Part shown: piece after piece, positions 38,831 to 60,724 of the stretch | Position numbering within the stretch: position 1 is the first letter of the stretch | Layout of the letters: each line of letters begins with the position of its first letter | Program-made: the position numbers and the translations under genes | Notes under the pieces: generated by a model | Told to the model about the DNA's origin: nothing | Databases searched by the model: none | Seen by the model: only the letters and a program-made list of their open reading frames with translations | DNA from: Laburnicola sp. R22_1 | Lineage: Eukaryota; Ascomycota; Dothideomycetes; Pleosporales; Didymosphaeriaceae | NCBI GenBank assembly: GCA_014281115.1 | Contig: JACONQ010000005.1 | Location: 3,038,001 to 3,102,000, forward strand | Direction: 5' to 3' | DNA: 64,000 nt

Positions 38831-38988
38831 TATCTATATACTCTATAGGTAAGAGCCTCTAAAAGTGTTAAGGTTCTAATATTATTGTATAATAAGCATT
38901 ATATAAGGATTATATAATACCTATACGCTATAGCCTATACGCTATGGAACTTTCTTCTTTTTATTTATACTTCTTTTAAATATAAGTA

Positions 38989-40859
38989 ACGTACTTTGCA
39001 CTCGAGTCGATCATTCCATCGAGTCGATCACTTTGCCAAGACCCCACCAAGTTCTGTACTATTCACGATAGTACAGAGTCAACACGAACTATTTTCGATA
39101 GTCCAAATAGGCTAATCTATTCAGAATCTACTTCTACAGGCTGCCTACAGGTTGTTTTGTTATGCCCAGGCTTGCCGCAGCGTCCACAGCGCCGTTGAGC
39201 AGATTCGCCTCCATCAGCGCGCACCCTCTTCTTCGCCTTTTGCCCATCACTGCGCGCCCCAAACTCCTTTAGAGTGGCCAGCCGCTGGCCCTCTTTAGCT
39301 ATAAGGACTCCTTTACGCTGTGCTCGCTTTCTTTTATGCGATTTACGTCGCGTGGCGGCCTCACTAGCAGCTTAAAGTTCAGCGTTGCGTTTAGTCATCA
39401 ACACTAAAGAATGCCCTATTAGCTTAGCGCCTTTAACGAGCTTTTCCACCGCCTTAACTATATAAGTTAGGGAACTATCTACATGCCTTTGAATCCTCTG
39501 CTTAACCAGCGTCGATTGCGACCCAAGTTCTGTACTATTTCGCGGAGTTTGCGACTCCCATGTACTATCGCGAATAGTACAAAGTGGAGGCGTACGCAGG
39601 CGGACGTCAAGCTGCGATATTACAACTTCTAGGTCGTGGGGCACTAGGCCAGCACCTCGAAAGCCTCCTTTAATATTACTTTCAGTAATTAAAGCCTTAA
39701 AAGCAGCAATAAAGCAAGGTAGGAACTTGATTTTAGTGATGTGCGTAATGTGGTTGCGCATCAGATTCTCAGCTTGGCGCCTATACGCCTTCTTTAACAG
39801 CGCAAAACAACCTATATTAAGTGGCTGCAAGAGGTGCGACGAGTGTGGAGGCATACAGAGAGTAATAATATTACTCTTTTTGCAGTAATCCTGGAATTCG
39901 AGCGAGTTGTGACTTTCGTGGCCATTAATAATGAGCAAACGTGCTCCACTAGTAGTACGCCTCTTTGTATGCTCATTAAAGTGCTTTAGCCATTGCAGAC
40001 CAAGCTTATTTGTTGTCTAGCCGTTCTTAGAGACTGCAATAACCCAATCATAAGGTAGATCCTTCTCCTTATACCAGGCGGAGAGGTGGTGCTTGCCCCT
40101 AAAGATAATGAAGGGTGGGATCCACCACCCCATTGCGTTAATGCCTTGGATAACTGTTGTCCACTCCCTATTGTCCTGCTGCACCTGCTTTGGCCGTCCT
40201 CAACACTTAGAGCCTGTAACTACCGCTCTAGTCAATATTATGCCTATTATAAAGCCAGACTCGTCAAAATTGTAGGTGTCCTTATCTAGGATACCATACT
40301 TGGCCTTTATGTTCTCCACAAGCCGGAACCAGCCTTGTATCACCTTAGGATCCTCCTAGAGGGCTCTCTTATAGTCGTACTTTCGATTGAACTTAACTTA
40401 AAGCTTTAGCTAGCGCTTAACAAAGTCATAAGGCCACCTCTAGCCAACTGGCTTGTAGTGGCGTGCAGCCAGTAAAGAATCGGCCATATCTTTTATAGCA
40501 TTAAGCCGGGGCGGAAATCCTCGCGCGTCTAGGTTAAGTATATGCTGCATAATTACCTGCTCCTCTCTTATAGTAAGTCTTATTTTGTTGGGTGCGCAGT
40601 CGCGTCTAAACATCTTTCTAGCGCGTTAGTTACTAAGTGTACTTTAAGAGACGTTATAGAGGGCTGCAGCGCGTCGCTAAGAGAGTGTCGCGTCTTGTTT
40701 AATAGCCTAGATTATAAGCTGTATACGCGCTTCTTTTAACGCCAGTAGTTTGTTGTGTGGTTAAGGCATCGCGTTGTACTATTGCTGATAGTACGTTTTG
40801 GTGGGGTCTTGGCAAAGTGATCGACTCGATGGAATGATCGACTCGAGTGCAAAGTACGT
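38989..40859 (-). mobile_element. Pogo/Fot1 element D, 1871 bp
   Basis: Perfect inverted repeats of about 62 bp begin ACGTACTTTGCACTCGAGTC, flanked by TA (38987-38988, 40860-40861). Removing it restores ATATAAGTAATTAATATT, matching the uninterrupted LTR elsewhere. Within the repeat, TCGAGTCGATCA occurs at offsets 14 and 31. Three GTACTAT-N5-ATAGTAC dyads lie in the element. Confidence 0.92.
39372..40740 (-). pseudogene. Pogo/Fot1 transposase of element D, inactivated
   Basis: The leftward frame reads, through several TAG/TAA stops, a HTH/CENP-B-like N-terminus, YNFDESGFIIG (first catalytic Asp kept), VIQGINAMGWW and LLIINGHESHNS, where the family has LDGH, so the second catalytic Asp is Asn. 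MPPHSSHLLQPLNIGCFALL follows (third Asp also Asn). The C-terminal 188 codons (39938-39372) are open, ending MTKRNAEL. Two lost catalytic Asp residues and the stops make it inactive. Confidence 0.85.
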
Positions 40860-42090
40860 TAATTAATATTAAAGTTAGTTTTATTATATTATATTTTTTC
40901 TTATACACGTATTTTATAAACCTCTATACTTACTAATATAGCTAAGTTTCCCCCTATCTATATAGCTAGCTATAAAATACCTATTTAATACTTATTAGTA
41001 GTTAATTAGCCTTTAACTATAAATTAGTAAAAGTAAAAATAGAGCGTATAAGCGTTATTAGCTATATACTTTATTTTATTATACTCTATCCTTTATATAT
41101 AAAAGGATAGTAGATTAAACCTTTATAGAATTAAAAAGTAAATATTACTACTATATAAAATAAAGAACGCAATTATATTAGGAAGAGAAACAGTGCAGAC
41201 CTTTTAGTATATAGTATAACGCTATAAGAGAAAGCTATAGGTATGCTAAAAATATATTAAAAAAGGTAAAGCAGTAAAATAGGTTAGTCTAGGTAGAAAC
41301 TAATTGTTAGCACGTGAAAACTAGCCCCTTATACTAATAATAAGGTAGTTAATTATAAAATATACTATTTACTAAAGTTAATAATAATATAATATATAGC
41401 TACTACCTATATAGTATAACATACATAACTAGATAAAGATTACCTATTTACACAACCTTTCTATTCTTGCAAATATTTAATTACTAGTTAAGATCTTAAG
41501 GTTAGTTACTATATTTATTTCTTACTCTAAAGACGCTATTACTACTAGATATATAATATTACGCCTCTACCTAGGAGATGTAAATAATAATAACGCGACT
41601 AGATATAATAGCTAGACGCTACTTAATATTAAAAACTATATAGTCTATACTAAGGACCTATAAATAGCTACTATAGAATTAGATTACTATATTAAGAAGA
41701 ATATAGATCTTAGTAAGCAAAAGCCTAAAATTAGTAAGATAAGTCTTATAATATAGATTGTCATATACTAGTTTAGATATAAGGTGCTTATAATTATTAA
41801 GAATAAGGACTAGAAAAATATAAATATTTTTATATAGTAAGAGTCTAGATTAGTAGCTATATACTACTACATAGCTTATAGTAATTACTACCTAAGATTA
41901 AATCTCTAATTAATACCTGCTTACTTTAAAGATAGTAGTTATACTAAGTAGGTACTAGAGATATAAAGGATATATAAATATATAATTATATTATAGAATA
42001 TTTATAGGTAATAGGTAGAGTAAGACTAGTAAATTATTAAAGTATTATTTAGTATTAGGAGTAAGAAGCGCGCGCAATTTATTATATATT

Positions 42091-42128
42091 ATAGTAGTAG
42101 TATTATAGTAGTAGTAGTAGTAGTAGTT

Positions 42129-42167
<39 letters not shown>

Positions 42168-42205
42168 CGCAGTAGTAGTAGTAGTAGTAGTAGTAGTATA
42201 TTATA

Positions 42206-42291
<86 letters not shown>
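42091..42291 (+). repeat. (TAG)n microsatellite
   Basis: About 200 bp of nearly pure GTA/TAG repeat, broken by a few interruptions (TTTAG, CGCAG, TATATTATATAG). It is the longest simple repeat in the window and lies inside a RIPped retroelement. Confidence 0.97.
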
Positions 42292-45200
42292 AAGCGTATA
42301 TATATATAGTAAATTGTCTATTATCTAGTAATATAGTAGTAGGTAAGCAAGTTAGGGTGTTATTATTATAGGGTTAGTTATCTTAGAAGCTAGAAAGATA
42401 TTAAAAACTATAATACGCTCTAGGCTTAGCGCGTATATAATATTATATGGGTAGTAGTAATGTAATAAAAAAATATAGTAATTAAATATAGTAGGGCCAC
42501 TTAAAAACTAATAAGTAGAGATAGTTTATACTCCTACCCAGAAGAATTACTTTAACTATAAGATTATTATTAATATTATATACATTAGAGCTAAAGACGC
42601 ATTATATATTATTAATATAGATATATTATTCTAAGCCGCAATATTCCTAAAATTAATATCCACTTAAGATATCTAGAACGCTCTCTATTAATGCTAGATT
42701 AATATCTACTAAGGTCTACGTAACTATATTATATACAACCTAGATACAAACTTTAAATTAGATAAGTTTAGAAATTATATAAAACTTATTAGTATAATAT
42801 ATAGGTAGATGCCTATAGAGGCATATTAGATAGTAGGAAACGTTAAACACTTACACGCACCTCTCTATAAAGCCTTTAGTATCCTTAAGGGTAAATTAAA
42901 GAATTATATAGATAATAAGAATGTTCTCTAAATAGCTATTAAAGCTATTAGTAATACTATAGGCCTAGATAGCCTTATACTAATACTACTAGTCTTTAGC
43001 GCATACCCTAGAATTAGTATAAATTCTTTTCTAATACCTAATATTATTACACGTGTAAACACTATATAAAAGACAATAAAAATACTATAAAGAAAAAGAG
43101 ATAATACTAGTATTAATTATGCGCTAAATATTTATAATAGCCTAGTAGTAGTGTATAAGATTCTTAAACTTTTTTTTAGATCTAAGGTTATAGTCTAGAG
43201 AGAGAAAGGTGGTTAGACTAGTCTATACGCAATTAAGAGTATTAAGAATAGAGATATAATTCTTAATTTTAGAAATATCTTAGTAAAGTTTTGCTATATA
43301 TAGATTAAGCTATACTACTATAAGAAAGATTATATTCTTCTACCTTCGCATAAAGTTAATAATATTACTCTAGTATAGAGGAATCCTTTAGAAAGGAAGA
43401 AAAGAAAATACCTAAGAAGAGACGCTATATAATAATCCACACTAGTGCTATAAAATAGTTTTCCTTTAAATAGTAAACTATATCCTAATATAGTTTTCCT
43501 TTAAATAGTAAACTATATCCTATATATAAAGATAAGACACCCTATTTAACTATATAAGAAATCCCACCTTATATTTGCTATACTAGAGCTCTATATAGAA
43601 GGTGTAATTATAACACCTAAAGCACCCTTTAAAGAATTAGACTATATAGAAATAGACGTCCTTATTACTAATAGCATACTTAAGATTCTTTCCTTTAATC
43701 TATCTAAGTATATAAGTAGAATCTTTAACCTCTGCCCTATATAAGAAGTTAAAGATAAGACTATTTAACTATATAAGAAATCCCACCTTATATTTGCTAG
43801 TTACTTAGATAAGAAAAAGAAGAAAATTCTTACTTAATTACTAACTATCTAGAGGATAAGCTAGCGCCTACTTCTTATACTAGGAGCAAGCCTAAGGGCT
43901 ATATATAAAATGTATTTTAAACTATAAAATATAATCTAGACCTATATTTAGTCTACTAATAAGCTATTTTATATACTCTATACTAGACTACTAAAGAAGT
44001 TGCGTATAAGCTTTCTATTAAATATAATCTTTTATATTATATAACTACTTTATAGCGTAGCTAAATTAGGTCTATACTAGTTTAAAACCTACTACAACTA
44101 TTATAAGGAGAAGCTTAGAATAATAACTTTATTATATAATCTATATCTACTTATTACTAATAAAGGAAAGTATACCTTTAGGATTACTAGTCTTTAGATA
44201 GATAACACCTTTAGTATTATTAACAAGAACTTTGCATAGAAAGAAGAGAAAGAGCTAAAAAAGCAGCCTTTTATATAAAGGATAAGACTATTCTTACTAA
44301 GGATTAACTTATTAAATTTAATAGTAAAAGAATTTAACTTATTAATAATACTATAGTTCTTATATAAAAGGGTTAAGCAAAAGGTCTTTATATAATTAAT
44401 CCTAAAAATAAGAATACTACTTAGAAGTATATAGAGTAGCGTATATAAGGTGCATATATTATATTTATATACTAACTAGAGGCTGTATTTAACTTATCTA
44501 TTACTGCTTAGACTATAACACCTTTATATAAAGACATTAAGGTGTTAAATATATAAATTTAGTAGTAGATTAATAATAGTAAGTATAGTTTTACTTTTAT
44601 ACTATTAGATCTCTACTATATAAAGCTGTTTACTTTTACTAATAGCTTATTTACTAATAATAAGGACCTAAGCTTATAGCTAGGATTTTTAATTACTCTA
44701 GGCAATAAACACTATATAAAAATAGCAATAATCTTAAGATTTGCGCTAATATTATATACTAGAATTTAACTAAGTATAAAAGAGTAATAAGGAGTGTCCT
44801 AGCTAGTAAGCTATATAGTATTGTAGGAGGGTTTAATAATACTATTACTATTAGCACAACTCTTTAGAAAATTATATACACGCTTAATCTACTACTAATC
44901 CTAGCAGTTGTCTATATAAATTTAAAGTCTCTCTATAATTACCTTATATAACTAAGAACTATAAATAAGAAGCGTCTTATAATTAATATTATATTGCTCT
45001 ACAAATTGTATAAGTATTATAAGATCTCTAAGATTAGATAGATTAATAGAAAGGATAACTCTACTAATGCCTATATAAAAAAGGCTCTAAACTAGGCCCT
45101 AAAGTCCTTATTTCTTACTAACACTCTAATAATTACTATTAAAGTATTAGTTAATTATCTAGAGTCCGTACACGCAAGCTCTATCTAGTCTTTACCTAGA

Positions 45201-46356
45201 ATAGTTTCTTTATTATCTATTTATTTCTTTGTGTATACACTTGTTTATCTTCTATATATATATATATATATTACTAGAAAAGACAATTTTTTATTTTACT
45301 TTGCACAAAGAAAAGATTAGAATATTTATTTTAGAGAAGGGTTTTTAATCTAGAATATATAGATATTAGACCCCTAAACCTATTACTCTAGCATATTAAT
45401 TATAGTAATCGTACTAAGCACTATAGCTCTACTATATATAAGAACTACACATACTATTCTAGAAAGTTGCAATTATATAACAATTAGTAAATGGTAAAGG
45501 CCTAATATTACTACTATAGCGGCGTATATAGAGTGCCTATAAGCTAACTATAAGACTATATAAGAACTATATAGAAGTATTCCTTATATTAAATAACTTT
45601 AGTAGCCTATAGGCGTAGGTCTACACTATTTAAAAGAATAATATTAATATTATACAAAGGCATCTGCGCGATAGTCTACTTCTTAGGCTATTTTAAGTTA
45701 ATATGTATATAAAGGCAAACCTATAAAAGAACTAAAAACTTATATTAATAGAAATATTTAGTAGGAATATATAATTTGCTATAGACATAGTTAGAAAAGT
45801 AATATAAATATATCTACTAGACTTATTATATATAGTAAGAGCAAAGCTAGAAAGGGTAACTTAGTTACTAATAGGCTGGAGAGCTATTTTCTATAATAGT
45901 TTAGCACTATACAAAATAACGTATTATATAATAAAAAGAGAAAAGAGCTAGGGAATAGAGGATACGTACAAAGAGATATTTAAAGTTAAGAATAGAAAAA
46001 AAAAAGAATAAAGAAAGGAAAGTAAGCATTTTATACTTTTTTCTTCTATATAGAGCCTTAACTACGCAATCTCCTAGCGTTTAACTTCCCCTTACTATTA
46101 ACACCTAATATTGTATAAAATTACTTAATCTTACTACCTAAGCAAACACGCTAAGTAAGTTAACCAATTATATAAGAAATAAATTAAATAAGGAAACTAC
46201 TATATAAATAGCATATTATTACTATAATTTTACTATTAACTATGTAATTTTACTACCTGCTACTATTAGCCTAATCGCCTAGATTAATCTACTATTACTA
46301 ATAAGCCTAATCGCAATTATAATAAATTATTACTTAATAGAATCTTCTTATAAAAT

Positions 46357-46978
46357 AAAAATCTAGCCTTATATAGGAAATATAGAGCATGCGTATATAT
46401 AGAAGAAATAAGAGTAAGTAGATAGTTTATATAGAGAAAGGGAGAACTAGGTATAGCTAATAGCAACCTTAAAATAAAAAGTTACTAGTGTCTATATACT
46501 ATATAGGCAAGACTTCTAATAGTGTTAAAGTTATTTTATAATAGGCATTATATAGGTGTTATATAATGCCTATACACTATAGCCTATACGCTATAGAGTT
46601 TTCTTTTTTTTATCCACACTTCTATAGAATAAGTAAGTAATAACTAGATTTATTTGCCTCGCTCTTTTTATAAACTAAAAATCTAGCCTTATATAGGAAA
46701 TATAAAGCATGCTTATACATAGGAGGAATAGGAGTAAGTAGATAGTTTTTGCGGAGGAAGGAAGAACTAGACATAGCTAATAGCAACCTTAAAATAAAAA
46801 GTTGCTAGTATCTATATACTATATAGGTAAGGCTTCTAATAGTGTTAAGGTTATTATATTATAGGCATTATATAAGTGTTATATAATGCCTATACACTAT
46901 AGCCTATATACTATAGAGTTTTCTCTTTTTATCTATACCTTTATAGAATAAGTAAGTAATAACTAGATCTATTTGCCT
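46357..46978 (+). repeat. Tandem duplication of the pol end and LTR start
   Basis: Two copies of about 310 bp (46357-46668, 46669-46978) both begin TAAAAATCTAGCCTTATATA and run through CACTATAGCCTATA to TAGATCTATTTGCCT or its variant. The second continues into the complete LTR. They have diverged by mostly C/T and G/A changes. Confidence 0.8.
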
Positions 46979-47083
46979 TGCACTATCCCCTATATACTAT
47001 GTATACTATACAACTCTCTCTCTCTTACTAAATAAATGTGTAACCATTCTATTTATGCAGCGAGCTATAGAGCCTATTTAATA

Positions 47084-47570
47084 ATTTTATTAATTTATAT
47101 ATTTTTTAGCTAAGGTGCTATAGGTATAAAAGTAAAATATATTAACTTTTAAAGTAATTTTAATATAGTAGTAAAAAGAAAAGGTAGAGAATATAATAAG
47201 TAAGTGTTACTAAATATTAAAACCTATAGTATAGACTTATAGAAAGCTAGTTAATAGTTAATAGTTTTACTTATAGTAATATTTTATCTATACTTATAAT
47301 TTATAAATATAGAATAGTTACTACTAATATATATATATATAGATATAGTACTATACTAAAATAATATTATATAATTACTAGTAATAACTAAGTATATATA
47401 ATATATGCCTTTCACGCTCTTTTTAATTACTAAGCAGGGGCTCTGCTTTTTTTATTATGTTATTTAAGATAAAAGCCTTTGTTGTTCTATCCCTAGGTAG
47501 TTAATTAACAACACATATAATATATAATTACTATAGCTAGCTAATATTCCTCTTAGTAAGAATAGCCTAG
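47084..47570. repeat. AT-rich DNA to the right isochore edge
   Basis: Contains another copy of the TAATTACTAAGCAGGGG ... CCCTAGGTAG block (about 47410-47500), in the same orientation as those near 7.8 and 23.7 kb. Composition returns to normal near 47570. No gene. Confidence 0.55.
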
Positions 47571-49008
47571 TAAAAACAAAACAAAATTATTTACTCATCT
47601 ATAACATTCCAAAAAGCACAATACGATGAAAACACATATCTCGTTTTGCGTCTCTGGATTTGCTGATGAGACTTGGTCACAAGACGCTCAGCGCGAAAGC
47701 GCAGGCACAGTTCTCTAAACCTCAGGTATTCAACGTAGAGGTTCGCCTACTATCTGATGTCCCTCTTCGGCATAGCTGAGCTTAAAAAGTCTAGAGATTT
47801 ATTGGGGATTGAGTTACCCCAGGATGCAGAAGAGAAATGGGTATCGAATGCAAGGACTACATACCAAGTGACAGGTCGCCTCGCATCGTAGATTTCTACC
47901 TTGTTTTGGATCTGAAAGGTCCGTTTCCAACAAAGCTTGCAGATCGTCTTGCGTGTATAGAGGGTTTTCGTCTGATGATAGCGCCTGCGATGCCAGTGCG
48001 CTAATCCGCCTTGCCATGTCGTGTTCCGAAGGACGAGAGGACGCAAAGCAATGTGCCAAGGGCTAGGGAGTAGTCGCGGAGACGAGCCCTGGAGAGGACT
48101 AGAGGACGCCAGTCAAGGTGCTGAGGGCGAGGGAGTGGCCAGCGCAGCCGATGACAAGAGGACGCAAAGCAATATGCCAAGGGCGAGGGAGTAGTCAGCG
48201 CAGCCGCGGACGAGAGGACGAGATGACGCGCTGAGGGATGGGGGTGTTGGTTGTGTGAGTCTTGAGGCGCGGCTTCTGCCCGTGGTTGAGTTGAAGCGTT
48301 GTCGTACATCACTCTGCGTTTGTATTATATATCCCCGGGTAACACACAGTAGTTTGACTTGCTGCTGTGATACAAAGAAGGTAGCGGATTCGATAAATAT
48401 CCATGAGCGAACAAGATTTTGGCTATCTCATTAGGGGTGCTTCCGTCAAGTCGAGGTGCTTCTACTACAAACGATAGTAAGCTTCGGCGTCTGTACATAG
48501 GTAACGTATGGAGAACATATATGATATGTGTAAAATTGCTCTTCCATCCAGCTTCTTCCACGTCAACTGAATTCTCTGGTCATTTCGCCGAGAAAGTCTA
48601 GGAGTCGCTCTTCTCGACATAGCCTCTGTCACATTTCCGTTGTAGCGGCATATTATTAATTATATTCTAAAACAAATAGGAAAACCATACCAACATTCGC
48701 GGCAGTTTCACCGGCTAGATGATATGCGTTTGGTCATTCAGCGAATGCCATTATCGGTAGGCTTGATTGGAAATCATTATGCTAATTGTCTACTTTAACT
48801 TAATTTCAACTGTAAATGCTTTAACTTCTACTTAATAGTATCAAAAACGCAATCAAAGAAGCATACCATAGGAAGTACAGTTCAAGGGAATGTCCAATAA
48901 AACAAACGCAACAGGGTAAGACTTATATCTCTCGTCAAAAGCATAGTTTATCCCTTGAGTCTATTCGGACTATATAAAAATCTAGTACAGTTCGGCGTGG
49001 AGCCCAGT
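47571..49008. other. Intergenic region with an imperfect repeat cluster
   Basis: Ordinary composition. At about 48030-48240, GAGGACGCAAAGCAAT followed by GTGCCAAGGGC and AGGGAGTAGTC recur two to three times imperfectly. The open frames over this cluster follow the repeat and look non-coding. No domain recognised elsewhere. Confidence 0.5.
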
Positions 49009-50800
49009 CTATTCCAGCGTATATCCGTGGTGAACTTTTGCCTTCGGCTGAACAGACCCCGAGTAGGAGAACAACTGTTTGGGGTCATACTTGGACTTGA
49101 GCTTCTGCAGCCTAGGCAGGTGATCGCCGTAGTATTTCTCTTGAGCCTTATTGCCCACCAGCCTCGAGTCTGCGTAGTTGATGTACATGCCCCAGTCCGA
49201 TCTAGGTGTCTCTTTGGTAACAGCGTCGACCCAGCCGTCCAGGAACCCAAAGGAGCTGGCAGGATATGTCTCGTTATTCTCGTAACGATCATAAAACTGA
49301 ATGATGTACAGGTGTTCCCTCCAGGAATATGCCGTAGCATCCTTGTCGACCTTGGCGACCTGCGAGTTCTTGCCGCCGTGCATGTCGAGCTGGAAGAACC
49401 AGAAGCGGTCGACGACTTTGTTGGCAACGTCAAAGTAGTAGTCGACGAAAGCTTGAGCGGCGGTACCGTTGAGACCTTTAAGGGTAAGGCTCTTGGCGTA
49501 GAAGTTCTCTTGCTGGCTGATGTTAGTAACCACGCTTCCAAAGAATGGAGCATAGGTGGCGACGAAAACACCGAACACCTTGGCAGCTGTGATATTTTGT
49601 ACAGCCCTCAATGGCATTACAATTTTAGATGATACCAGACTGTTCGTAGTCTTTCGTTTGCTACTGTGGGGGTGGAATTTGACTTACAGGGCTGGGATGG
49701 ATCCAGTCAACCTCCTCATAGTTAGAGTATGCGATAACGGCTTGAATCCAGTTGAGAGACTGGGGCTCGGAGACATTGTAGCCCTTGGGAAGAGTATCAA
49801 GGAGGGGCTGGAATGCCTTCTTCCACTGCGCGGGAGTGCCATAGTAGAGGCCCTCGATTCCAGGCTGGCCCTTGTTATAGTCGCCGATTCGGAAGTTTAC
49901 CTGATATTCATTAGTCATCATGACCCAAACTATCCGGATATACTGCACAGCTTACCTCCCTTGGCATAGTGTCTTTGGCATACTTTTCGACGGCCTCAAG
50001 ACCGGCCATAGCAGTGTCCTTGGTCCACCCAAGAGACACACCAAACTTAGTCAGGGTCTTAGGCGCCGCGAAAGTGCTCAATTTCCACGAGGCGACGATA
50101 CCGAAGTTGGATCCCGCACCCTTGATGCCCCAAAAAAGGTCCGCGTTTTGAAAACGGGAGGCCTCCTTGACACTGCCATCCGCAAGCACAACGGTGACAC
50201 ATTCAACGGAGTCGACAGCAAGACCGTGCATGTGAGAGCTGAATCCAAAACCTCCGTGAAGGAAATGACCCGAAACACCAACGCTACGTATAATTAGATA
50301 CATAAGCTTGAAAAGTGGAAAATAATATGCACTTACCCAGGGCAGGTACCATGAGAAATGGCGCGGCCGTATTGCTCGTAGAGCACAGTCGCTACGTGAC
50401 CCAATCGTGCACCAGGTTGAACTGTCGCAATGTTCTTCCTCGCGTCATAGGTGACGTTGTACATTTGATCGAGCTCGACAACGAGGTGGCCGTTCTCTCC
50501 ACCAAAGCCATACGATGCGTAACTGTGACCACCCGACTTGGCAGAGACCTTGATGCCGAGCTTTTTCCCGCACTTGACCGAGTCCTGGATGTGCTTGGTG
50601 GTGGTCGGTACAGAGATGGCAGTGGGAAGGTAGGGCAGGCGGATGTTGAAGGGCGCAACATCCTCATTCCAACCCTCCGAACCCTTGACATTGATGGGAA
50701 CGCCGGCGTCGGTGAGACACTTGTCGATTGTAGCCTTCGCAACGAGCGCTTCGGCCGTAGAGGCAACCAAGCCAGCGGAAAGAAGAGTAGCGACACGCAT
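49009..50800 (-). CDS. Secreted FAD-linked oxidase, berberine-bridge/AA7 type
   Basis: The ATG at 50800 starts a signal peptide (MRVATLLSAGLVASTAEAL). Exons are 50800-50337, 50283-49956, 49900-49688 and 49512-49009. Introns are 53, 55 and 175 bp, with consistent phases, giving about 502 aa. The first two joins are solid. The third is long but ends after a TTACTAAC branch and gives a family-typical length; a tiny extra exon inside it is possible. The FAD domain carries SGGHSY (H92) and GTCPG (C153), the pair that binds FAD doubly in glucooligosaccharide oxidases. GGENGHLVVELDQM and LFWGIKGAGSNFGIV follow. The C-terminal BBE motif lies in YYGDHLPRLQKLKSKYDPKQ. Known family role: oxidises oligosaccharide reducing ends with production of hydrogen peroxide. 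Substrate unknown. Confidence 0.88.
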
Positions 50801-50866
50801 GATGAGCAACGAAAGAAAGACTGTAGCCTGCGGACGAACGAAGAAACATAGTGAGGACCGAGTGAC

Positions 50867-50874
50867 TTTATATC
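50867..50874 (-). promoter_or_regulatory. Putative TATA box of the AA7 oxidase
   Basis: GATATAAA on the minus strand, about 67 bp upstream of the ATG at 50800. Confidence 0.4.
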
Positions 50875-51441
50875 TCGGTTGCTGACGTAGGACCTTGGTA
50901 GGATTCGCGCGGTCGAGTGAACACGGGTCATCGCCTCGTAACTATGGATAGCTAGCCCGCAAATTTAGTCGAGAACAACAAGCAGATCAAGCCACACTTA
51001 CTGTCTAGTACTTGCAATATATCAGCAAGTAAGCGACAGAGAGATGGTCGACCAGGAAGCCGGACCGGCCCCGCCTACTGCCAGCTGCACAGTCCTTGGC
51101 ACGTCGAAGGAATGCTTCTTTTTGCGTTCATTTCTTGGTCGAGGTAGCTAGGTCCAAGGTTGCAATTACGCGTCCAGATCCTCCGTACCGGTTGTTGGAT
51201 CCTCGCTACCGGCGTAGCGCAACATCTAGAAGAAATCCACGTGGCGCCGTGTCAGATCTTGTGTGCAGACAAGATATGCATGGCTCGAGGATGTACCCGC
51301 GGCCCGATATTCCTGGTGCCTGGATGAGAAGCCGGTTAAACACCAAGGGTTAAAGACCAATTGTAGACGCCACGAAAACGCCAGCTTTGTCCCGTTATCT
51401 TGCCTGCTCAGCTGCTCGGTCAGCACTTGGGAGTCTATGTA
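50875..51441. other. Upstream region of the AA7 gene to the hAT insertion site
   Basis: Ordinary composition with no recognisable coding sequence. The 8-bp hAT target duplication CTTGTGCA starts at 51442. Confidence 0.5.
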
Positions 51442-54238
51442 CTTGTGCACACAATTGTCAACAATCAAATATACTTCCAAATCTCGAGCTTCGAACGGCC
51501 GAGTTGCCAAATCAAGTAAATCAAGTCTTTGCCGTATAAATTGAGGCGGAAATCAAGTCCAAAATAAAGATTTGACTTGGAGATTTGATAGATTTGATAG
51601 TGTTGTTTAGCTATAGAAGCGAGTGGGTGTTGCTGCAAAAGTTGGCTTATTTGGAGTTGTTGATTGGCCACAACTTACTGCCGGCATCACGCCCAGGCCC
51701 CCTAGCCATCTTATCGCGCACTTGACGCGCTGTTTTGTTACTATCGCCTATCCATCGGCGTACTTTTGTTGGTGTTTTAGCTATTGCAGTTAACTTATTG
51801 CGTACTTTTCGCTGCCTTTGCTTACCTTGTGGGCTTGCTAATAGCCCGAGATGCCCCCTAAACGCGCCATCGATGGCAACGCACGCGCCGGAGTACGCGC
51901 CAACGGCGCCGTAGAGGTGACCGATGAAGGTGGAGGTCGCGGCAAGCGTTAGAAAGTACGCACCCAGCGGGCTATTGAAGGCGACTCGCTGCCAGCCGGC
52001 ACTGCCAGTCAGCCGATAGAGCTGCCCGAAACGCAGCTAACTGCGCCGCTGTCGCCTCAATCGTCGCCATTACGGGGAGCTAGCCAGCTAGCCATGCCCG
52101 CCGAAGACCCGCTTGTCGGCCAGGTTATAGATGCCTTACAGCGGCTGTGGGAGCTGCAGTTGCTGGAGTCGCAGGCGTTGTTAACGCCATCGTCGGCGTC
52201 AAAGGCAGCCACGGAGGCTTTGACTGTGGAGGATAATAATGTCGTTAGCGGCGGCTTTGACAAGCGCTTTGCGGACAATTACGATGGCATTGATTAGGAG
52301 AAGCTGGCTTGGTACCAGGTGCCGCGGCGTACTCTTGTTGGCAAGAAGAGCTGGGTCTTTTAGTACGGCTATCGCGTCGCGTTAAAGCAAAGTCCTGCAC
52401 AAATTGCGGCTAATAAGCCTAAGCGTACCTTCTTTGTGTGCCGCTTCTGCCACCACAACGCGCCAACGAGCAGCATAATTGAGGTGACGGATGCCACAAG
52501 CTCCGTGGCGAAGCACCTAGGTTGTCAAAGGCGCGGCCATCGCCTAACTGCGCGCGGGAAGCAGCTGCCACAGCTGCCGGGTGGTTAGTCAACTATCTTT
52601 GACGCGATAAAGAAGGGCGTACCTGTCACGCAAGCTGTGGTTAATGAGCTAAGTAACTTTGATGTTTAAGGCTTCTGGCTCGCCGCTGTGCAATGGCTTG
52701 TTGAGAATAACCATCCGCTGCGCGAATTGGAGACTGAGAGCTTCTGGCGCATGCTACAGTTCGCCAATCCTGCGGCAGTTCAAGCGCTGTGGACAAGCCA
52801 CAACAGCGTGTTGAGGTTCGTACTGTGGCTCTATAACTACCTTGTTCCTATTGTTAAAGTAGAATTAGCGACTGCGAGCAGTAAGGTGCACGTTAGCTTT
52901 GACAGCTGGACTGCAAAAGGTGGCAAGCGCGGCTTCTTTGGTGTCGTTGCTTACTACGTTGACACTGTGGGCAGGATTTGAGACTTACCTATTGCGCTGC
53001 CACAGCTCGCTGGCGTCCACAGCGGCGAGAGGATAGGCGAATGTGTTGATAAAGCGCTGTAGGCGTTTGATATAATGGCGGAGAAGCTAGGTTACTTTGT
53101 GTTAGATAACGCTGCAAGTAATAATGTGGCAGTGGAGTACTTGAGTAAATAGTATAGATTTACTGTCGCTTAACGCCGCCTTTGTTGCAGTTGCCACACT
53201 ATTAATCTTATTAGCCAAACTGTTATGTTTGGCAAGGATAAAGACGCCTACGATAATGACCCAAAGCACGAGAAGGATGAGGAGAAGTTTATGAATAAGT
53301 GGCGGCGGCTGGGGCCTTTGGGAGTGTTTCTAGACATCATCAACTTTATTAGTACGCCAAAATAGTACTCTAGTTTCTCTACTTTCCAGCACCTTGCGTT
53401 AGCTGAAGACCCCACAAATAAGGCCTTATTATTGGCCGTTGTTAAGGCGTGCGTTACACGCTAGAATAGCTATTGTGCTGCCTTTAAGCGTGGGCTTATC
53501 CTCTAACGTCCCATCACTAACTTCGCCAAACACCACATCTCACAGATCGAAGCGCTTAATCAAAAAACTAATAAGCTGCTAGCTGCTTTGGCGTAGATGC
53601 GATCAACTGGTCTATAAGCAGCAGACTAGGCAGTTATCACTAAGTATGTGGATGTGTTGAAGCCGCTCAAAGCAGCTATAGAGCGGCTGGAAGGTCGTGG
53701 TAAGAGCAAGCAGCCAGGTGATTGCAAGCTTAATGGGCGCTTTGGCGCCATTTATGAGGTTATCCCTACTTTTGAGCAGCTTATAAGCGCTTATGAAGAG
53801 CGCTTAATTACCTATTGCGATGTTGACTTTGAGTAAGAAGACGCTCTGGAAGACTATTTGGCCATTAACCTGCGCGGCGCTGTTGCCAAACTAAAGCTCT
53901 ATTATAGCAAACTGAGCGACAGTACTGCCTATTGCGCTGTGATTGTACTCCACCTGCGCTATTATAACTACTGTAAAGTCGCTTGGGTGGGTGACCTAGC
54001 TTAATTACCGTAGCGGCTGCCGACGCTGCCTTTTAGCAACTTTGGCGCCTCTATAGTGGTACTGTTGCTCCCCAGCCGCCTCCACGCCCGCTGGTTAAGC
54101 GGTCCAATACTATTGACGACGCTGTTGACGCGATTATTAAGGCGGAGAGCGACTCTGATAAAGAAACTGGCGATAAGTACAAGCGCTGGCGGGCTTGTGA
54201 GCCGCGTTGGAGCCGCGCCGACTTTGATCGAGAAGGTA

Positions 54239-56026
54239 AGCTAGCGCAGCCGGTTGTGAGACACCCAGGGATATGAGACACCGCGCAGAAATCCTCCACC
54301 CTTCAAAAAATCGCGATAATTGATTCAGCGTAATTACAATTGCCACTCACTACACATAGATTGCAGAGTTTTAGCTGCTACTTCTGCTACTAGTTTTTCT
54401 GCCTCCTTTTCTTTGTCAGGACTATTGTTTTGTTGCTCTATAAGCTTAGAGGCCTCTACTGCTATCTTAATCGTATCTACGTTGGCAAAGCGTTGATTTG
54501 GGTCCATACGAACCCTCTTTTGTGGTGCTTAAGGCTTAAGAGCCTCAAGTTGGCTCTGCAATTGTTTGTTCTCTGCTTCTAGCGCTACTAAGCGAGTATT
54601 TGCAACTGCAATTGCCTTGCCAGCTTTTTCAAACAGTTAGTGAACCTTCCGGCCTATACTCTGCTCTTTGTGAAGCGCTCGCTGAGCTATAAACAGATCA
54701 CAAGGGCCGCGGGGGGTAGAGAGATAGCTCTCAATTAGTTGTTGAGCTTGATTCTGGCGAGGTGGCGTAACAGGCCTTCGAGCGACTTGAGATGAGTTAA
54801 TTACTCGCTCAATGTTTAATGGGCAGATGCCTGCAGTAGCCCATCCAGCGCGAATAACTCTCTTAGTGATTGCACCCTCTCTAGCAACGTAGTAGGCAGT
54901 AATAAAGCGTTCCTTTTTAACTAGGGCAGCATCATTAAGGTGTGATAACTCCTAGATCTGCTGGCGATAGAATTGTTTTACTACTAAGAAAACAGAGAGA
55001 TCTAGGGGCTACAAAACATAAGATAAGTGAGCAGGGAGAAATAGAAGCCTGACTTTATTCTGCTTGCAGATCCACAGGAAGTCTAGGTCCACATAGCTGC
55101 CGTGGCCATCCAAAATCAGCATCCTCTAGCGATCCTCCAAGGGCGCAGTTTCTGGCAGAAATACGCGTTGCAGCCACTCAACGCCAATTGCGTTAGATGT
55201 CCAGCCATTCTCTAAGGTTGCGTATAGCTAGTCAGGTATTATTAATAGAAACTAGGTGCTCTGTAGGTGTTTGCCTTTGAAAATAACCACAGGCCTCAGC
55301 TTCTTGCCCATTGCCAAAACGCACTCGATTATTAACGCCCACTCGCGATTCTCTAGCAACTAATAGTAAGCCTTTGTTTTCTGGCTGTCTGCGAGTACTC
55401 TGGTGTTTGCACATACACCTAGGGCCTTGCCAGTCTTGTCCATATTCCATATATCCTCATTGCGTATGTTCAGCTCAACGCGGAGCTGCTTATAGAGCTC
55501 AAGAAACTTGCGTATTGCCTCCTAAGTTGCTCCCTCAGCTCTCGCAGCCTTAATCTTCCTACCCACAATAGAGGCGACGCGTGAGTTGCGTTTAATAAAG
55601 TAGGATATCCAGTGTTTACCCACTAATGTGGGCTCGCCGTTTATCCTTAGGATTTGATTCGCCATTTCTCGTGTACGAGCGTGAGAAGGAGGATACCCGC
55701 GTGCGTCCTCTTCAAGTATCTATTGTACAAGGAAGTCCTCTTATTATGGAGTTAATCGTTGCTAGTATACGTGGCTATTTTGCCAGTTTTATGAACCGCG
55801 TACGCGCCTCAAGAGCGTGGCTAGGGGGATGTTGTGTGCCTTTGCAGCAGCTCGTTAACTAGGAAAAACGCCAGCATTGAGATTAGTAATAGCTGCTTGA
55901 ATTGCTGCCTCACGATTGGCCATTTTGGTAGGGTGGATGTGGAGATATCGCGATTTTTTTGAGGGGTGGAGGATTTCTGCGCGGTGTCTCATATCCCTGG
56001 GTGTCTCACAACCGGCTGCGCTAGCT
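54239..56026 (-). mobile_element. Pogo element A, 1788 bp, degraded
   Basis: Inverted repeats of about 80 bp begin AGCTAGCGCAGCCGGTTGTG, with one substitution and one indel between ends. TA on both sides (54237-54238, 56027-56028). Within the repeat TGAGACACC occurs at offsets 19 and 36. The transposase is homologous to that of element C, which is also 1788 bp, but the repeats are not similar. Confidence 0.9.
54334..55923 (-). pseudogene. Pogo transposase of element A
   Basis: Starts MANREAAIQAAI and ends LQSMCSEWQL, the same ends as the intact protein of element C. In between it has stops, a frameshift near the N-terminal HTH, and substitutions. The motif NMDKTGKALGV keeps the first Asp, LILDGHGSYVDLDF keeps the second, and LPAHLSYVL-stop-PLDLSVF disrupts the third region. 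Mostly TAG/TAA stops. Confidence 0.85.
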
Positions 56027-56028
56027 TA

Positions 56029-58156
56029 CCGTGCCCGTGCGCGCAGCGACCCACGTCGCGCAACGCCTCACGAACAACATGCTCACCACTTTAAAGATGA
56101 GGTTATTAAGCCACCCACAATAACTATTATTACAAGATACTTTAGTGGAGTAATAGAGTAATGCTTGCGATTAAGTTATACTATTTATATTTACGCGGAA
56201 GGTTAATAGTACGGCCACGAGAGTTGATTTTAGGTGGAGCCTCTGGTGAAGCTTCTGGGGACGCTGCGACAGCTGCAGAGCCGCCACCGCGTCTCTGACG
56301 CTTAGGCTTTGATAGAGGAGGACCTGAAGCTTTGCGCTTCCTGTTCTAGGTAGTTTGAGATGCTCTCTTAGTGTTTTGGGCTTCAATTCGAGCAGCGCGC
56401 GCGGTCTCTTTCTTGGCCTTCTCCCTCTCCCTCACCACCTTGGCTGCCTCTCTCGCCACACGTCTCTCCTGAGCCTGCTGCTCTCTATAGAGCTTGGCAG
56501 CAGCTTGAAGCTCCTTCCTATTAGCCTTTGCAAGCTGCTCTTTATGCTCTTCTTGTTGTTTCACTGTCTCTCGTGCACGTGCCTCTCTAATCTTACGCGG
56601 AGACCAGAAGACGGCACCACCGTGGTACTCCTCTCGCTGCTGCAAGTTAAGAGGTTTGCTGCGCTTCTTATGCTTCTTCTTAGCAGTAAGAGCCTTTCTT
56701 AGCCTATTGTTCTTATAGTGTAGCAGCTCGTTTTGCACTTGGAGTTGGTGGAGTGTTTGGGAGAGCGACTTTGACTCTTCTGCGGCGGTATCCCTCACTG
56801 CAGAGCGTACGAGACGCTCCATCTGACGCCAGTCGCTCTCTTTGGGGGCTGAGGGATCTGCTTCACCTTTATCCTGCTCCCTGGATCCCTCTCTCTGGAA
56901 GCGTTTGAGTATAACCTCTGGCTCCATGGGCCATATACTAGTAGCTTCAAAGGACTTGAGGATAGTCTCTGTCTTGAACAAGGACTCCTACGCTCTCCAG
57001 AATAGTGGGAAGAAGTCTCCCTTCTTAACTGTAATAAGCCCTTAGGTCTTCTAGAGGTGAGTGGAGAGCTCCTTGGAGTAGGCGGCGGAGAGAGGTTTAA
57101 ACATGGCTACGTTGAGAGGTTGAAGCGTATAGGTGGAGTAAGGGGGAAACACGGCTAGGAGGATGCGATAGGAGTCGCAGTAGTTGATAAACTCCTTTAT
57201 AAGGTGACTGCCATGGCTGTTAAGTATAAGGAGACGCCAGTCTCTCCCTTGGCGCGCTTTCTGCTTCGTGCAGCGGTTGAAAACCTGCTCTAGCTATGCC
57301 AAACTAACGTCGTTATTTGTCCAGCCAGATGGAGATGAGGTAATAAAGACGTTGTGCTTCCCTACTTTAACGTTGGCCACCCAGGTTAACTGCAGTGACT
57401 TAGATAACGCTTAAAAGATAAGACTAGGCGGTAGAGCACTCCTATCCGCGCAAACAGCTGCTAAGAGAGTTATCTATTTACGAGAGCCATCTTGGAGTGA
57501 TGCTTGCACCTCCTTTAACTCCTATTGCCGTTGACTAAACACTTGTTTTAAGCGTCCTGTTACACCAATTATAAAGCCCTTCTTATCCATATTGTAGGTG
57601 TGGGACGGCTGTATGTTGTACTGCCTCATCTTACAAAGTAGCAAGTCAAAATATAGTTCGTACTTAACGTATGAATCAGCTTTGTGGCGGCGAGAGTCCA
57701 TCCCAGAGGACCATTTGGAGACGAGATGATCGCCTTGTCGATGGAGAAAGCGGTTAACCCAAGAGTCGCTCACGCTCTCTGTGGCTACTTAGGATGCGAG
57801 ATTTTTTATCATCTCTCTTATAGGAGGCAGCCCTCTCTTTGTAAGGTTTTTAATGTATTGTACGAGCTCTAACTCTTGTTGTAGGTTGAGTATTTGTTGA
57901 TCGCGATCCTTAGCTTCCCGTGGGCGCTGACAACCCTTGTGTCTTCGGGTCAGCGTACTGTACGCCACACCGAAGTCACGAGCAATTGCCCTATATGAAA
58001 AGTGTTCTCCTGGTTCCAGCGATTCGATTGCTGCAATCGCGTCATCGATCGGTGCCATGGTGATGGAGTTACGAGGCGTTGAAGTTTGAGAGTTGTCTGG
58101 TGTTTTGGTGTTCGTGAGGCGCTGCGCGACGTGGGGCGTTGCGCGCACGGGCACGG
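56029..58156 (-). mobile_element. Pogo element B, 2128 bp, degraded
   Basis: Inverted repeats of about 50 bp begin CCGTGCCCGTGCGCGCA. The 3' TA (58157-58158) and the TA next to element A form its target duplication. Without A and B the hAT frame reads DREG-NPVRYW without gap. CGCGCA[A/G]CG[A/C]C occurs at offsets 12 and 29. Confidence 0.85.
56346..58058 (-). pseudogene. Pogo transposase of element B (long coiled-coil C-terminus)
   Basis: Starts MAPIDDAIAAIESLEPGEHF with a HTH (YRAIARDFGVAYSTLTRRHK). A CENP-B-like second HTH follows (SDSWVNRFLHRQGDHLVSKW), then YNMDKKGFIIGV, where the usual D-E is D-K. A stretch with several stops (about 56980-57520) leads to an open C-terminal 211 codons (56981-56346) rich in Lys, Glu and Arg, probably coiled coil. 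It represents a different pogo lineage from A and C. Confidence 0.8.
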
Positions 58157-58195
58157 TAACCCAGTCCGCTATTGGCTTGGGTTACGCAACAAGTA

Positions 58196-58896
58196 CAGTG
58201 TCCGTGCGCGTAATGCGCATGTTCGCGTAATGCGCACCCTTTTACTAGGAAAAGAAAAGAAAATAAGTAACTTTAAAGCTATATAACTCTTTAACTACTT
58301 TTTCTTTTTAAAAGCTTCCTTAACTAAAGTTATATAAAAACACTATCTCTATAACTCTAGAATTTTAGTTTTCTAATAATAAATAGTTTTAAGAAAAAGT
58401 ATAAAAGTACTAAAACTTAAGTCTCTAAAATTTAAAAGTGAAATTTTTTTAAGAGTAAAGTATACTTTTAAAATATATTTTATATTAGGACTTTTTTATA
58501 AATAGCTACTTAAAAAGATAGATTATCTTTCCTAAATTTTATATTTAAAAAAGATAAAAAGATAATATAACTTCCTAATTAATAATTTTATTAAAAAGAA
58601 CTTAATATAAAATATAATTTAAATAATATACTTTACTTCTAAAAAAATATCACTTTTAAATTTTAGAGACTTAAGTTTTAGTACTTTTATACTTTTTTCT
58701 TAAAACTATTTATTATTAGAAAACTAAAATTCTAGAGTTATAGAGATAGTGTTTTTATATAACTTTAGTTAAGGAAGCTTTTAAAAAGAAAAAGTAGTTA
58801 AAGAGTTATATAGCTTTAAAGTTACTTATTTTCTTTTCTTTTCCTAGTAAAAGGGTGCGCATTACGCGAACATGCGCATTACGCGCACGGACACTG
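58196..58896. mobile_element. 701-bp foldback MITE with about 250-300-bp inverted arms
   Basis: TA on both sides (58194-58195, 58897-58898). The outer ~245 bp of each arm are almost identical inverted copies; similarity fades toward the centre near 58546. Ends CAGTGTCCGTGCGCGTAATG. CGCGTAATGCGCA occurs at offsets 12 and 29. The AT-rich interior has no coding capacity. Confidence 0.93.
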
Positions 58897-58936
58897 TACC
58901 TAGTGTTGGCGCAGTTTGTGCTTGATATAATGAGTA

Positions 58937-60724
58937 AGCCGGCTGACGTGGAACCTGCGCACCCCTAGAACCTGCGCACCCCACCAAAACGCGCACCGCG
59001 AACAACAAGACGCGTATTTTATCAACGCCTATTATAGTTGCCACTCTATACACATAGATTGAAAAGTAGTATCAGCTGCTGCCCTCGCTGTAGTTGCGAC
59101 ACGTCTCTGAGCTCTAGGCCTAGAGTTCTGAGCCTCTGTAGCAGCAGCTTGATCAATCGCACGCTTGATACTCTCGACGTCGGCAAATCTCTGATTGTAA
59201 TCAATAGTAACCCGTTTACGCTTCCTCTGAGAGCTAGTAGCCTCTAGTTGATACTGTAGCCGAGAGATCTCTGATTCCTGCCTTGCTACTCGACTATTAC
59301 CAATAGCTATTGCCTTACTCGCTTTCTGGAGCAGTCGGCGCGTAGATCTTGATAGGTTTTCTGATCTCTCAATAGCTCTCTGAGCCGCGTACACGTCTTG
59401 GGGTTTCTGAGGGGTGCGATAGAGTATATTAATTGCGCCGAGATCCTGAAGTAGGCGTGGCGGCGTTGCTGGTCTGCCAATAACCTGTGAGGATTGAATT
59501 ACCTGGTTAGGATTGTAGGGAATAAGGCCAGCAGCGCGCCAGCCAGCCCGAATTACTCTCTCTGAGAGGCCTTCCTCTCTGGCTAGGTGGTAGTAGCAAA
59601 TAAATCGCTCTTTCTTGATAGGTGCGGCGTCGTCGAGGCTCGCCAGGTCGCGGATGAGATTTCTATAGTTTGACTTGATTACTGAGAACCCTGATAGATC
59701 TAGTGGCTGTAGGAGGTGTGTTGAATGAGGTGGTAGAAATAGAAGCTCTACTCGAGCCTGCTTACAAGCCCAGAGGAACTCAATATCCACATGGCTACTA
59801 TGCGCGTCGCAGAGGAGTAGTCGGTATTGGCCACCCTCGGGCGCTGTTTCTGGTATAAACAGCCGGCGCAGCCACTCAAGGCCTATCTCCTTTGAGGTCC
59901 ATCCATTCTCTGAGGTTGTATAGAGCCAATTTGGTATAGATGCCGGAAACCAGGTTGTCTGTAGGCTCTGGCCCTTGAATATAGCGGCGCAGGGCAGCTT
60001 CTGCCCTAGAGCTGATACAGCCTCAATTATTGAGACCCACTCGCGATTCTCTGGCGACTTGATGTAAGCCTTCTTTTTCTGGCTACTTGCGAGCACCCTA
60101 GAGTTGGTACCTACACCAAGGGCAATACCAGTCTCATCAATATTCCAGATATTCTCTGCCTGTATGCCCAGCCTGATTCTGACGCGCTCAAAGAGCTCAA
60201 GAAACGCGCGGATCTGTTCTGGAGTAGCTGCCTCAGCGCGACTAGTATCTAGCTTTCTTCCAATAACAGAGGCAACGCGAGGGTTGCGCCGTATGAAGGT
60301 TTGTATCCACCGCTTGCCTAGAGGCTCGACGTCGCCGTTCATACGGAGAATTCGGATCGCCATTTCTCGCGCGCGCGCGTGTGAGGGAGGGTAGCCATTT
60401 GCGTCCTGCTCAAGGATCCACTCTACTAGGAAGTTCTCCTGATCCGGCGTCAATCGCTGTTGGTTGGCGTGGCTGGCGTGCTTGTTCGTTATGCCACCTA
60501 GTCGAGCGCGTAGGGTGGATGGAGGAATACCGTAGGCCTTTGCAGCAGCTCGTTGGCTTGTAAAAACACCGGCATTGAATTGCGCGATAGCTAATTGTAT
60601 ACTCTGCTCGCGGGCATCCATATTGAATAAGAAGTGTTGATAAAATACGCGTATTTCGTACGGGTACGCGTTTTGGTGGGGGTGCGCAGGTTCTGGGGGT
60701 GCGCAGGTTCCCCGTCAGCCGGCT
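58937..60724 (-). mobile_element. Pogo element C, 1788 bp, apparently autonomous
   Basis: Inverted repeats of about 57 bp begin AGCCGGCTGACG and contain AACCTGCGCACCCC at offsets 16 and 33. TA on both sides (58935-58936, 60725-60726). Removing it joins AGT+ATT in the hAT frame (IMS-IPAF). It carries one uninterrupted transposase gene. Confidence 0.93.
59032..60621 (-). CDS. Pogo/Fot1 transposase, intact, 529 aa
   Basis: A single exon from ATG 60621 without stops. Residues 1-60: psq-type HTH (SQRAAAKAYGIPPSTLRARL). About 60-125: CENP-B-like HTH (FLVEWILEQDANGYPPSHAR, LGKRWIQTFIRRNP). The DDE domain has D162 (NIDETGI), D272 (LLLCDAHSSH) and D308 (LLQPLDLSGF), so D-D-35-D, as in pogo/Fot1. The C-terminal part is Gln/Arg-rich, with basic stretch SQRKRKR, likely nuclear localisation. 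It should bind its own terminal repeats and cut and paste at TA. The intact frame suggests recent arrival or escape from RIP; activity is not shown. Confidence 0.93.
   Translation of the reverse strand: MDAREQSIQLAIAQFNAGVFTSQRAAAKAYGIPPSTLRARLGGITNKHASHANQQRLTPDQENFLVEWILEQDANGYPPSHARAREMAIRILRMNGDVEPLGKRWIQTFIRRNPRVASVIGRKLDTSRAEAATPEQIRAFLELFERVRIRLGIQAENIWNIDETGIALGVGTNSRVLASSQKKKAYIKSPENREWVSIIEAVSALGQKLPCAAIFKGQSLQTTWFPASIPNWLYTTSENGWTSKEIGLEWLRRLFIPETAPEGGQYRLLLCDAHSSHVDIEFLWACKQARVELLFLPPHSTHLLQPLDLSGFSVIKSNYRNLIRDLASLDDAAPIKKERFICYYHLAREEGLSERVIRAGWRAAGLIPYNPNQVIQSSQVIGRPATPPRLLQDLGAINILYRTPQKPQDVYAAQRAIERSENLSRSTRRLLQKASKAIAIGNSRVARQESEISRLQYQLEATSSQRKRKRVTIDYNQRFADVESIKRAIDQAAATEAQNSRPRAQRRVATTARAAADTTFQSMCIEWQL

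Follow-up and report, generated by a model that had tools for sequence, protein, structure and literature searches.

Paired sites at the ends of Fot-type pogo transposons covary with a predicted recognition helix of the transposase in a Laburnicola genome

Introduction

How a transposon family alters the ends that it recognises, with the enzyme and up to four DNA sites changing together, is an open question. It is raised here by a 64,000-nucleotide stretch of Laburnicola sp. R22_1 (contig JACONQ010000005.1, positions 3,038,001 to 3,102,000; hereafter the window), in which an initial annotation had described four pogo-type transposons (elements A to D), a foldback miniature inverted-repeat transposable element (MITE) and a decayed relic, with a short word repeated directly at a step of 17 bp in each terminal inverted repeat (TIR). 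The interpretation put forward was that two transposase DNA-binding units sit head-to-tail on abutting 17-bp sites, with fixed geometry and family-specific sequence. We analysed these ends together with loci fetched from the window's own genome assembly (63.9 Mb, 26 contigs), which are designated by L-numbers. On sequence comparison, and with a probability that we place at roughly 0.8, these Fot-type pogo transposons would carry paired head-to-tail sites at each end, with a core that covaries with the psq helix of the transposase, and would have undergone exchange between heads with ends and bodies in some groups.

Covariation of core words and helix residues

Alignment of 14 families related to elements C and A, with one sequence per family and the TA numbered as position 1, reveals a four-base core at positions 22-25 that recurs at positions 39-42. 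The two cores agree in 14/14 families at each of the four positions (chance expectation 3.7-9.3), and nine different core words are found among the 14 families. Reading the N-terminal protein sequences beside the ends associates these words with residues 34, 35, 38 and 39 of the transposase (Table 1).

Table 1. Helix residues and core words in 14 related families
Family	Residues 34/35/38/39	Core 22-25
C	PSRA	TGCG
L004	PSRD	CGCG
L088	PSRD	CGCG
L091	ESRN	TGCG
L013	QSST	TGAT
L043	QSST	TGAT
L051	QSSM	TGAT
L048	RSRG	CGCC
L101	RSQG	CGGC
L059	RSQD	CGGC
L049	LSHG	CGAA
L042	RPSA	GAGC
L102	APSA	GAGT
A (residues taken from L067)	LASR	GAGA

Residue 34 presents no conflict with base 25 in the 14 families, 12 of which carry residues occurring at least twice: proline (three families) and glutamate (one) go with G, arginine (four) with C, glutamine (three) and alanine (one) with T, and leucine (two) with A. 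Base 23 is G in 11/11 families with serine at residue 35, and A in 3/3 with proline or alanine. At residue 38, arginine is found with C at base 24 (5/5), glutamine with G (2/2), histidine with A (one family) and serine with either A or G. At residue 39, aspartate or glycine accompanies C at base 22 (6/6), threonine, methionine or asparagine accompanies T (4/4), arginine accompanies G (one family) and alanine is found with T or G. In three pairs of near relatives (C/L004, L048/L101 and L042/L102), the partners are distinguished by a single core base together with a single one of the four helix residues, and the same four residues and word occur on distant cassettes in L004/L088 and L013/L043. 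Single copies that keep the family word with an altered helix were omitted from the table as likely products of decay of the repeat-induced point mutation type: L029, L054 and L063, further L003, L014 and L026, whose changes lie within or next to the helix at residues other than these four, and L055, which has a stop at residue 34. In L044, which also lies outside the table, a shortened end presents TGGC beside CAC, its residues are R, S, S and T, and the three definite rules fit, with the register taken from CAC alone.

Arginine-guanine, glutamine-adenine and glutamate-cytosine are the usual residue-base pairings, and the combinations of arginine with C, glutamine with T and glutamate with G observed here would be these pairings read on the other strand. 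The combination of glutamine 38 with G24 falls outside this type.

Partial Mantel tests relate the helix to the word. When the remainder of the domain is controlled for, the four helix residues correlate with the word at r = 0.71 (0/20,000 permutations), a value that 0/5,000 random four-column sets reach. The whole helix defined on the AlphaFold2 (AF2) model, residues 34-41, yields r = 0.72 (p = 0.0002), with r ranging from 0.67 to 0.77 when one family at a time is left out and r = 0.61 (p = 0.002) with one family for each of the nine words; the segments used as controls (helices 1 and 2 and the linker) range from -0.22 to -0.05. A scan of all variable columns against the four bases, using the maximum statistic and 400 permutations, identified residue 35 with base 23 (p 0.005) and residue 34 with base 25 (p 0.018) as family-wise significant pairs. 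This covariation of bases and residues ties the repeated block to the recognition helix of the transposase. The variability of the helix residues was dropped as independent support, since residues 34 and 38 are not entropy outliers in 74 aligned relatives (1.37 and 2.11 bits, against a domain mean of 1.37); residue 39 shows high entropy in the same set (3.06 bits).

These data suggest a mechanism in which helix 3 of the psq domain would read the core in the major groove through residues 34, 35, 38 and 39, with residue 34 assigned to base 25, residue 35 to base 23 and, less securely, residues 38 and 39 to bases 24 and 22. An unvarying portion of the bipartite domain may contact the CAC beside the core, a pair of these domains would sit head-to-tail at each end, and the 17-bp step could be set by the transpososome. 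The address of a family would then change through its helix residues and all four site copies together, at constant geometry, and in some groups families that retained their own head and ends appear to have exchanged catalytic bodies. A readable code, whereby residues 34/35/38/39 specify bases 25/23/24/22, addresses recur, bodies swap and specificity is separable from catalysis, seems somewhat probable. If it holds, four residues could serve to predict the target of an uncharacterised Fot transposase, and it could become possible to match orphan MITEs to their enzymes and to anticipate cross-mobilisation between families; the genome offers a natural series for the question, which includes the three near pairs.

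Anatomy of the repeated site

The core is flanked by a constant block: C26 and A27 occur in all 14 families, C28 in nearly all of them, and CAC is invariant at 43-45. The proposal that the words of different elements have no sequence in common is contradicted by this block: A, B and C share CAC at 26-28 and 43-45, and D presents CA at 26-27 and 43-44. The foldback MITE lacks the CAC at these positions. The variability of core positions 22, 24 and 25 (1.53, 1.58 and 1.95 bits) ranks among the highest, and position 23 has 0.75 bits.

In the 14 families positions 29-36 match their +17 partners at about the chance rate, and the repeated part of the register spans about 7-10 bp (roughly positions 19/20-28). 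A repeated unit of the full 17 bp was rejected for the C clade on this basis; in the L095 and L098 families the full 17 bp are repeated. The whole 17-bp box of the initial proposal is hence not retained, and its remaining part, two head-to-tail transposase sites of fixed 17-bp geometry and family-specific sequence, appears consistent with the helix covariation and with the 30/30 ends described below.

All four cores are identical within the copy in 41/46 copies. The exceptions are the loss of one unit in L006 and L022, a 1-bp loss in L017 and a single-base change in L003 and L040. This count derives from 47 rows, from which one L009 inverted repeat was dropped as a non-element end, and excludes L056, whose ends differ, and L061-L102.

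Genome-wide survey of the 17-bp repeat

Each end was scored by the best ungapped repeat in its first 60 bp at lags of 10-30, and compared with 300 dinucleotide shuffles. The direct repeats 17 bp apart are present in the sequence at the offsets first described, counted from just after the TA, and lag 17 is top-scoring in all six of the window ends concerned (A, B, C, D, MITE and relic). The scores of C, D and the MITE lie above 300/300 shuffles at any lag, and that of A above 299/300. Singly, B and the relic are not significant, being matched at some lag by 55/300 and 82/300 shuffles; at lag 17 alone, 2/300 and 3/300 shuffles reach their scores. The relic, which had been said to fit the register, does so in that lag 17 scores best, at this lack of individual significance. 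The two controls cited as lacking the register behave as stated, lag 17 being the top lag in neither. The Tc1 element at 12829 scores 5 at lag 17, a value attained by 12/300 shuffles, and 6 at lag 15; the lag-17 score of the 160-bp MITE is 2.

Across the genome, lag 17 is best in 30/30 Fot-type ends scored (the six in the window and 24 others) versus 0/4 control ends, and in 28 of the 30 at most 1/300 shuffles reaches the lag-17 score at lag 17, B and the relic being the exceptions. The control set encompasses three elements with four ends (both ends of L077, plus a single end from the window Tc1 element and another from the 160-bp MITE), Tc1/mariner ends being definable for L077 only among ten fetched loci. 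Twelve of the 24 genome ends were defined by inverted repeats irrespective of lag; the other 12 were picked by eye in one-ended fetches, partly through their repeat, and constitute a biased sample. The inverted-repeat search gave no ends for L039, L061 and L069, and those of L050 and L055 were located by motif only. The excess of lag 17 predicted over shuffles and Tc1/mariner repeats was thus found in this one genome, with a partly biased sample and few controls.

A pair of copies at lag 17 is present in 18 of the 22 one-ended fetches (L081-L102) and absent from the other four (L084, L090, L093 and L097). Within the 18, L087 has a mismatch and a middling score, L096 and L100 tie with another lag, and in L082 lag 17 is second to an unrelated 19-bp tandem (CCAAAACCCTAGACGAAAC) located just inside the family's end, at about 128-165 of the locus. 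The single-site ends seen in L006, L022, L090 and L093 are consistent with the loss of one 17-bp unit.

A 15-bp step would be expected from mammalian Tigger ends for a Tigger-like family (L031-L038, L041, the outer element of L044, and L062; ends TACAGTCAACTCTCGTTATAACGAT). One of its ends bears repeats at both lag 17 (score 9) and lag 15 (score 7); at the other end neither lag scores above 3. In L007 (633-4556) and L010 (25-3951), L004-type elements lie inside a different pogo-type element, which has ends TACCGTGGGTCACC and carries a 17-bp repeat (CACCTCGTGCACGGCCC in L007).

Mosaic structure of heads, ends and bodies

Loci L048, L049 and L051 differ by only 3-6% in coding positions 391-690, and their synonymous differences per site amount to 0.50-0.70 in codons 1-56 versus 0.01-0.18 beyond codon 130. 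Between L049 and L051, the 5' and 3' ends each diverge by 0.29, and values of 0-0.03 prevail in the body, starting at about position 630. Such an elevated synonymous rate is better explained by recombination than by selection at the protein level alone. Eight pairs were profiled in this way: the pattern is clear in L048/L049, L049/L051, L048/L051 and C/L013, weaker in L004/L013, and lacking in C/L004, L043/L049 and L043/L059. The simplest reading of these profiles would be that bodies were overwritten between families keeping their own heads and ends; the alternative is that the head and both ends were replaced. In addition, the three TGAT families do not form a single clade in a helix-masked tree of ten families (approximately unbiased test, p = 4e-63), which indicates more than one origin or acquisition of this address.

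Locus L056 is a mosaic whose ends carry different words (left end at about 806-870, right end at about 2573-2616). Its outermost 5' bases and its 3' end are of the TGCG (L091) type, and its inner 5' end, head and body are of the CGGC (L059) type. It could have originated by nested insertion followed by loss, or by recombination.

Transfer to distant clades

The associations in Table 1 were carried over without modification to the D, B and L040 clades (14 families), the transposases of which are 27-38% identical to that of C where measured (D, B, L040, L046 and L064). Using residues 34, 38 and 39, 20/31 predictions are right at the TA register and 21/31 at +17, with the next best of 28 shifts giving 15 (permutation p 0.014). 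The code hence carries over to these clades only partly.

Alternative explanations

Several observations weigh against a core read by the psq helix at paired sites. The pairs 38/base 24 (p 0.23) and 39/base 22 (p 0.85) are not family-wise significant in the maximum-statistic scan, residue 35 outranks residue 39 for base 22, and the helix columns were spotted by eye ahead of testing, the blind-helix and all-column scans coming later. The helix changes and the core remains unchanged in L043/L051, L059/L101 and C/L091, and the window copy of A has leucine at residue 38, in place of the serine of L067 entered in Table 1. In the distant clades 11/31 predictions are wrong at the strict register, and the addition of residue 35 gives 22/39 right (p 0.078). 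The residue-35 rule breaks down in B-clade families, the residue-34 rule is broken by L092 (glutamate with C) and L093 (arginine with A), and L094 (3/3, at -1 or +1) and L096 (3/4, at -1) fit only with the register moved. The descriptions of DAHLIAE3 (PMC3441728) and of Sclerotinia elements (PMC4188875) report, in the parts concerned with these elements, no direct repeats. Two sites may not always be needed, given the single-site ends present in some copies (L006, L022, L090 and L093). Finally, our confidence is lowered slightly by two further points: in B, L087 and L040 the paired cores within an end are mismatched at one or two bases, and about half of the profiled pairs show the pattern of body exchange.

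The same single-site ends would be expected if only one copy were bound, with slippage or gene conversion maintaining the second as a duplicate and the 17 bp being the length of an old duplicated unit; conversion can, moreover, homogenise short tandem copies. We consider this unlikely. Only the core, its near neighbours and CAC agree between copies, with the other half at chance, which suggests selection on a short block and its spacing, and the step is kept in the elements whose transposases have diverged to the 27-38% identity given above. Linkage alone offers another account, in which the 5' end and head form one inherited cassette and the correlation of helix and word stems from descent, without any reading of bases. 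Several pairs do present heads and ends as a cassette apart from the body. However, cassette distance is almost uncorrelated with word distance (r = 0.095), whereas the helix follows the word at r = 0.82 with cassette DNA distance held constant (0/20,000 permutations); within the same cassette, neither the first two helices nor the linker follow the word, and the far 3' end has the same word in the 41/46 copies noted above. Descent without base reading is accordingly regarded as improbable. A role of the repeats in binding a host protein or chromatin, instead of the transposase, has a precedent in the CENP-B-like host proteins of pogo descent and finds no direct support here; with words that covary with their own transposase, family by family, in a single-host genome, such a role appears very improbable.

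Relationship to known systems

The CENP-B box is 17 bp long. CENP-B uses a single box and has a centromeric role, whereas the Fot elements analysed here appear to present two sites per end. Drosophila pogo transposase reportedly binds a 12-bp word twice per end (Wang 1999), and the TIRs of Pot2 are said to carry 16-bp direct repeats (Kachroo 1994). The 17-bp repeat itself is usual for this group and has been published before: Trem TIRs are described as two 17-bp direct repeats similar to those of Aft1 and Tan1 (PMC2836289), and DAHLIAE2 as carrying three 17-bp direct repeats (PMC3441728). The passages of these accounts that give the repeats contain neither a helix-tied 4-bp core nor mosaicism of head and ends versus body. 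Searches of titles and the starts of abstracts, with most subscription journals outside their coverage, returned no report of helix-end covariation in Fot/pogo elements or of separate histories of heads with ends and bodies.

The transposase of element C (P0001) matches PF05225, PF03221 and PF03184, all above cut-off, in agreement with the domain definition of Fot elements. The TIRs of about 44-99 bp start with TA, itself palindromic, and lie within the 40-100 bp with a TA/TAA flank that are given for Fot. A DD35D triad was assigned by eye to D162, D272 and D308, with 35 residues between the last two; in 69 aligned sequences D162 and D272 are invariant and D308 is present in at least 90%. TIRs of 86-99 bp and TA targets are given for FotC in the relevant part of its description (PMC7386202), and the same is found in many of L042-L060.

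AF2 predicts tandem helix-turn-helix (HTH) domains in the C transposase, with helices at 3-16, 23-29 and 34-41 and at 59-74, 81-94 and 105-112. These two predicted domains conform to the CENP-B-like bipartite architecture. The complex of CENP-B with its box (1hlv) is the rank 1 Foldseek match to the C head, a weak match obtained with a single-sequence model (E 0.07; mean predicted local distance difference test score 61), and the sequence match to CENP-B has E 0.24. In a second search with the head model 1hlv was not among the 50 matches listed, and with the full-length model CENP-B was not among the matches listed, which were filled by the catalytic domain.

Named relatives of the C transposase include Ascochyta, Curvularia, Boeremia, Paraphaeosphaeria, Pyrenophora, Podosphaera and Aureobasidium proteins, most of these genera belonging to the Pleosporales. 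One scan each of a viral-contig and a genome-contig collection returned no relative of P0001, and no protein named Verticillium was found among the best 120 of 399 relatives of L040. For the Verticillium element DAHLIAE2 (JN160809), the code would predict arginine at residues 34 and 39. Several such transposases (P0125, P0126, P0135, P0163 and others) are labelled '4-hydroxybenzoate polyprenyltransferase', probably a copied misannotation.

Elements in the window

The coordinates of the elements and of their sites are compiled in Table 2. The transposases of A and C share 53% identity.

Table 2. Elements and sites in the window (window coordinates)
Feature	Position	Strand	Remarks
Decayed relic	16124..18327	.	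weak lag-17 repeat
Element D, Fot/pogo, D clade	38987..40861	-	decayed; lag-17 repeats at both ends; cores CGAT 39008-39011, 39025-39028; 40837-40840, 40820-40823
Element A, Fot/pogo	54237..56028	-	word GAGA then CAC; inverted repeats; degraded transposase open reading frame on minus strand; HTH_Tnp_Tc5
A left end, two sites	54256..54281	+	cores GAGA 54258-54261, 54275-54278; lag 17 score 9
A right end, two sites	55984..56009	-	cores 56004-56007, 55987-55990
Element B, Fot/pogo, B clade	56027..58158	-	degraded; inverted repeats; CENP-B_N match below cut-off
B left end, lag-17 repeat	56040..56071	+	CGCGCAGCG/CGCGCAACG; cores GACC, GCCT
B right end, lag-17 repeat	58114..58145	-	cores GCCC, GCCT
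Foldback MITE	58194..58898	.	lag-17 repeat at either end; cores GCGC 58215-58218, 58232-58235; 58874-58877, 58857-58860
Element C, Fot/pogo	58935..60726	-	intact 529-residue transposase (P0001)
C left end, two sites	58954..58979	+	cores TGCG 58956-58959, 58973-58976, CAC after each
C transposase	59032..60621	-	HTH_psq residues 7-43; HTH_Tnp_Tc5 58-113; DDE_1 193-361
C recognition-helix codons	60505..60522	-	residues 34 (P), 35 (S), 38 (R), 39 (A); AF2 helix 34-41; covariation
C right end, two sites	60682..60707	-	cores TGCG 60702-60705, 60685-60688

The inner flank of one end of the relic (TTTTTGCCAAGACC) is similar, by eye, to those of D and L092, and the relic is on these grounds probably a D-clade element. 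Elements A, B, the MITE and C are packed into positions 54237-60726, and A and B abut, with a single TA (56027-56028) common to both.

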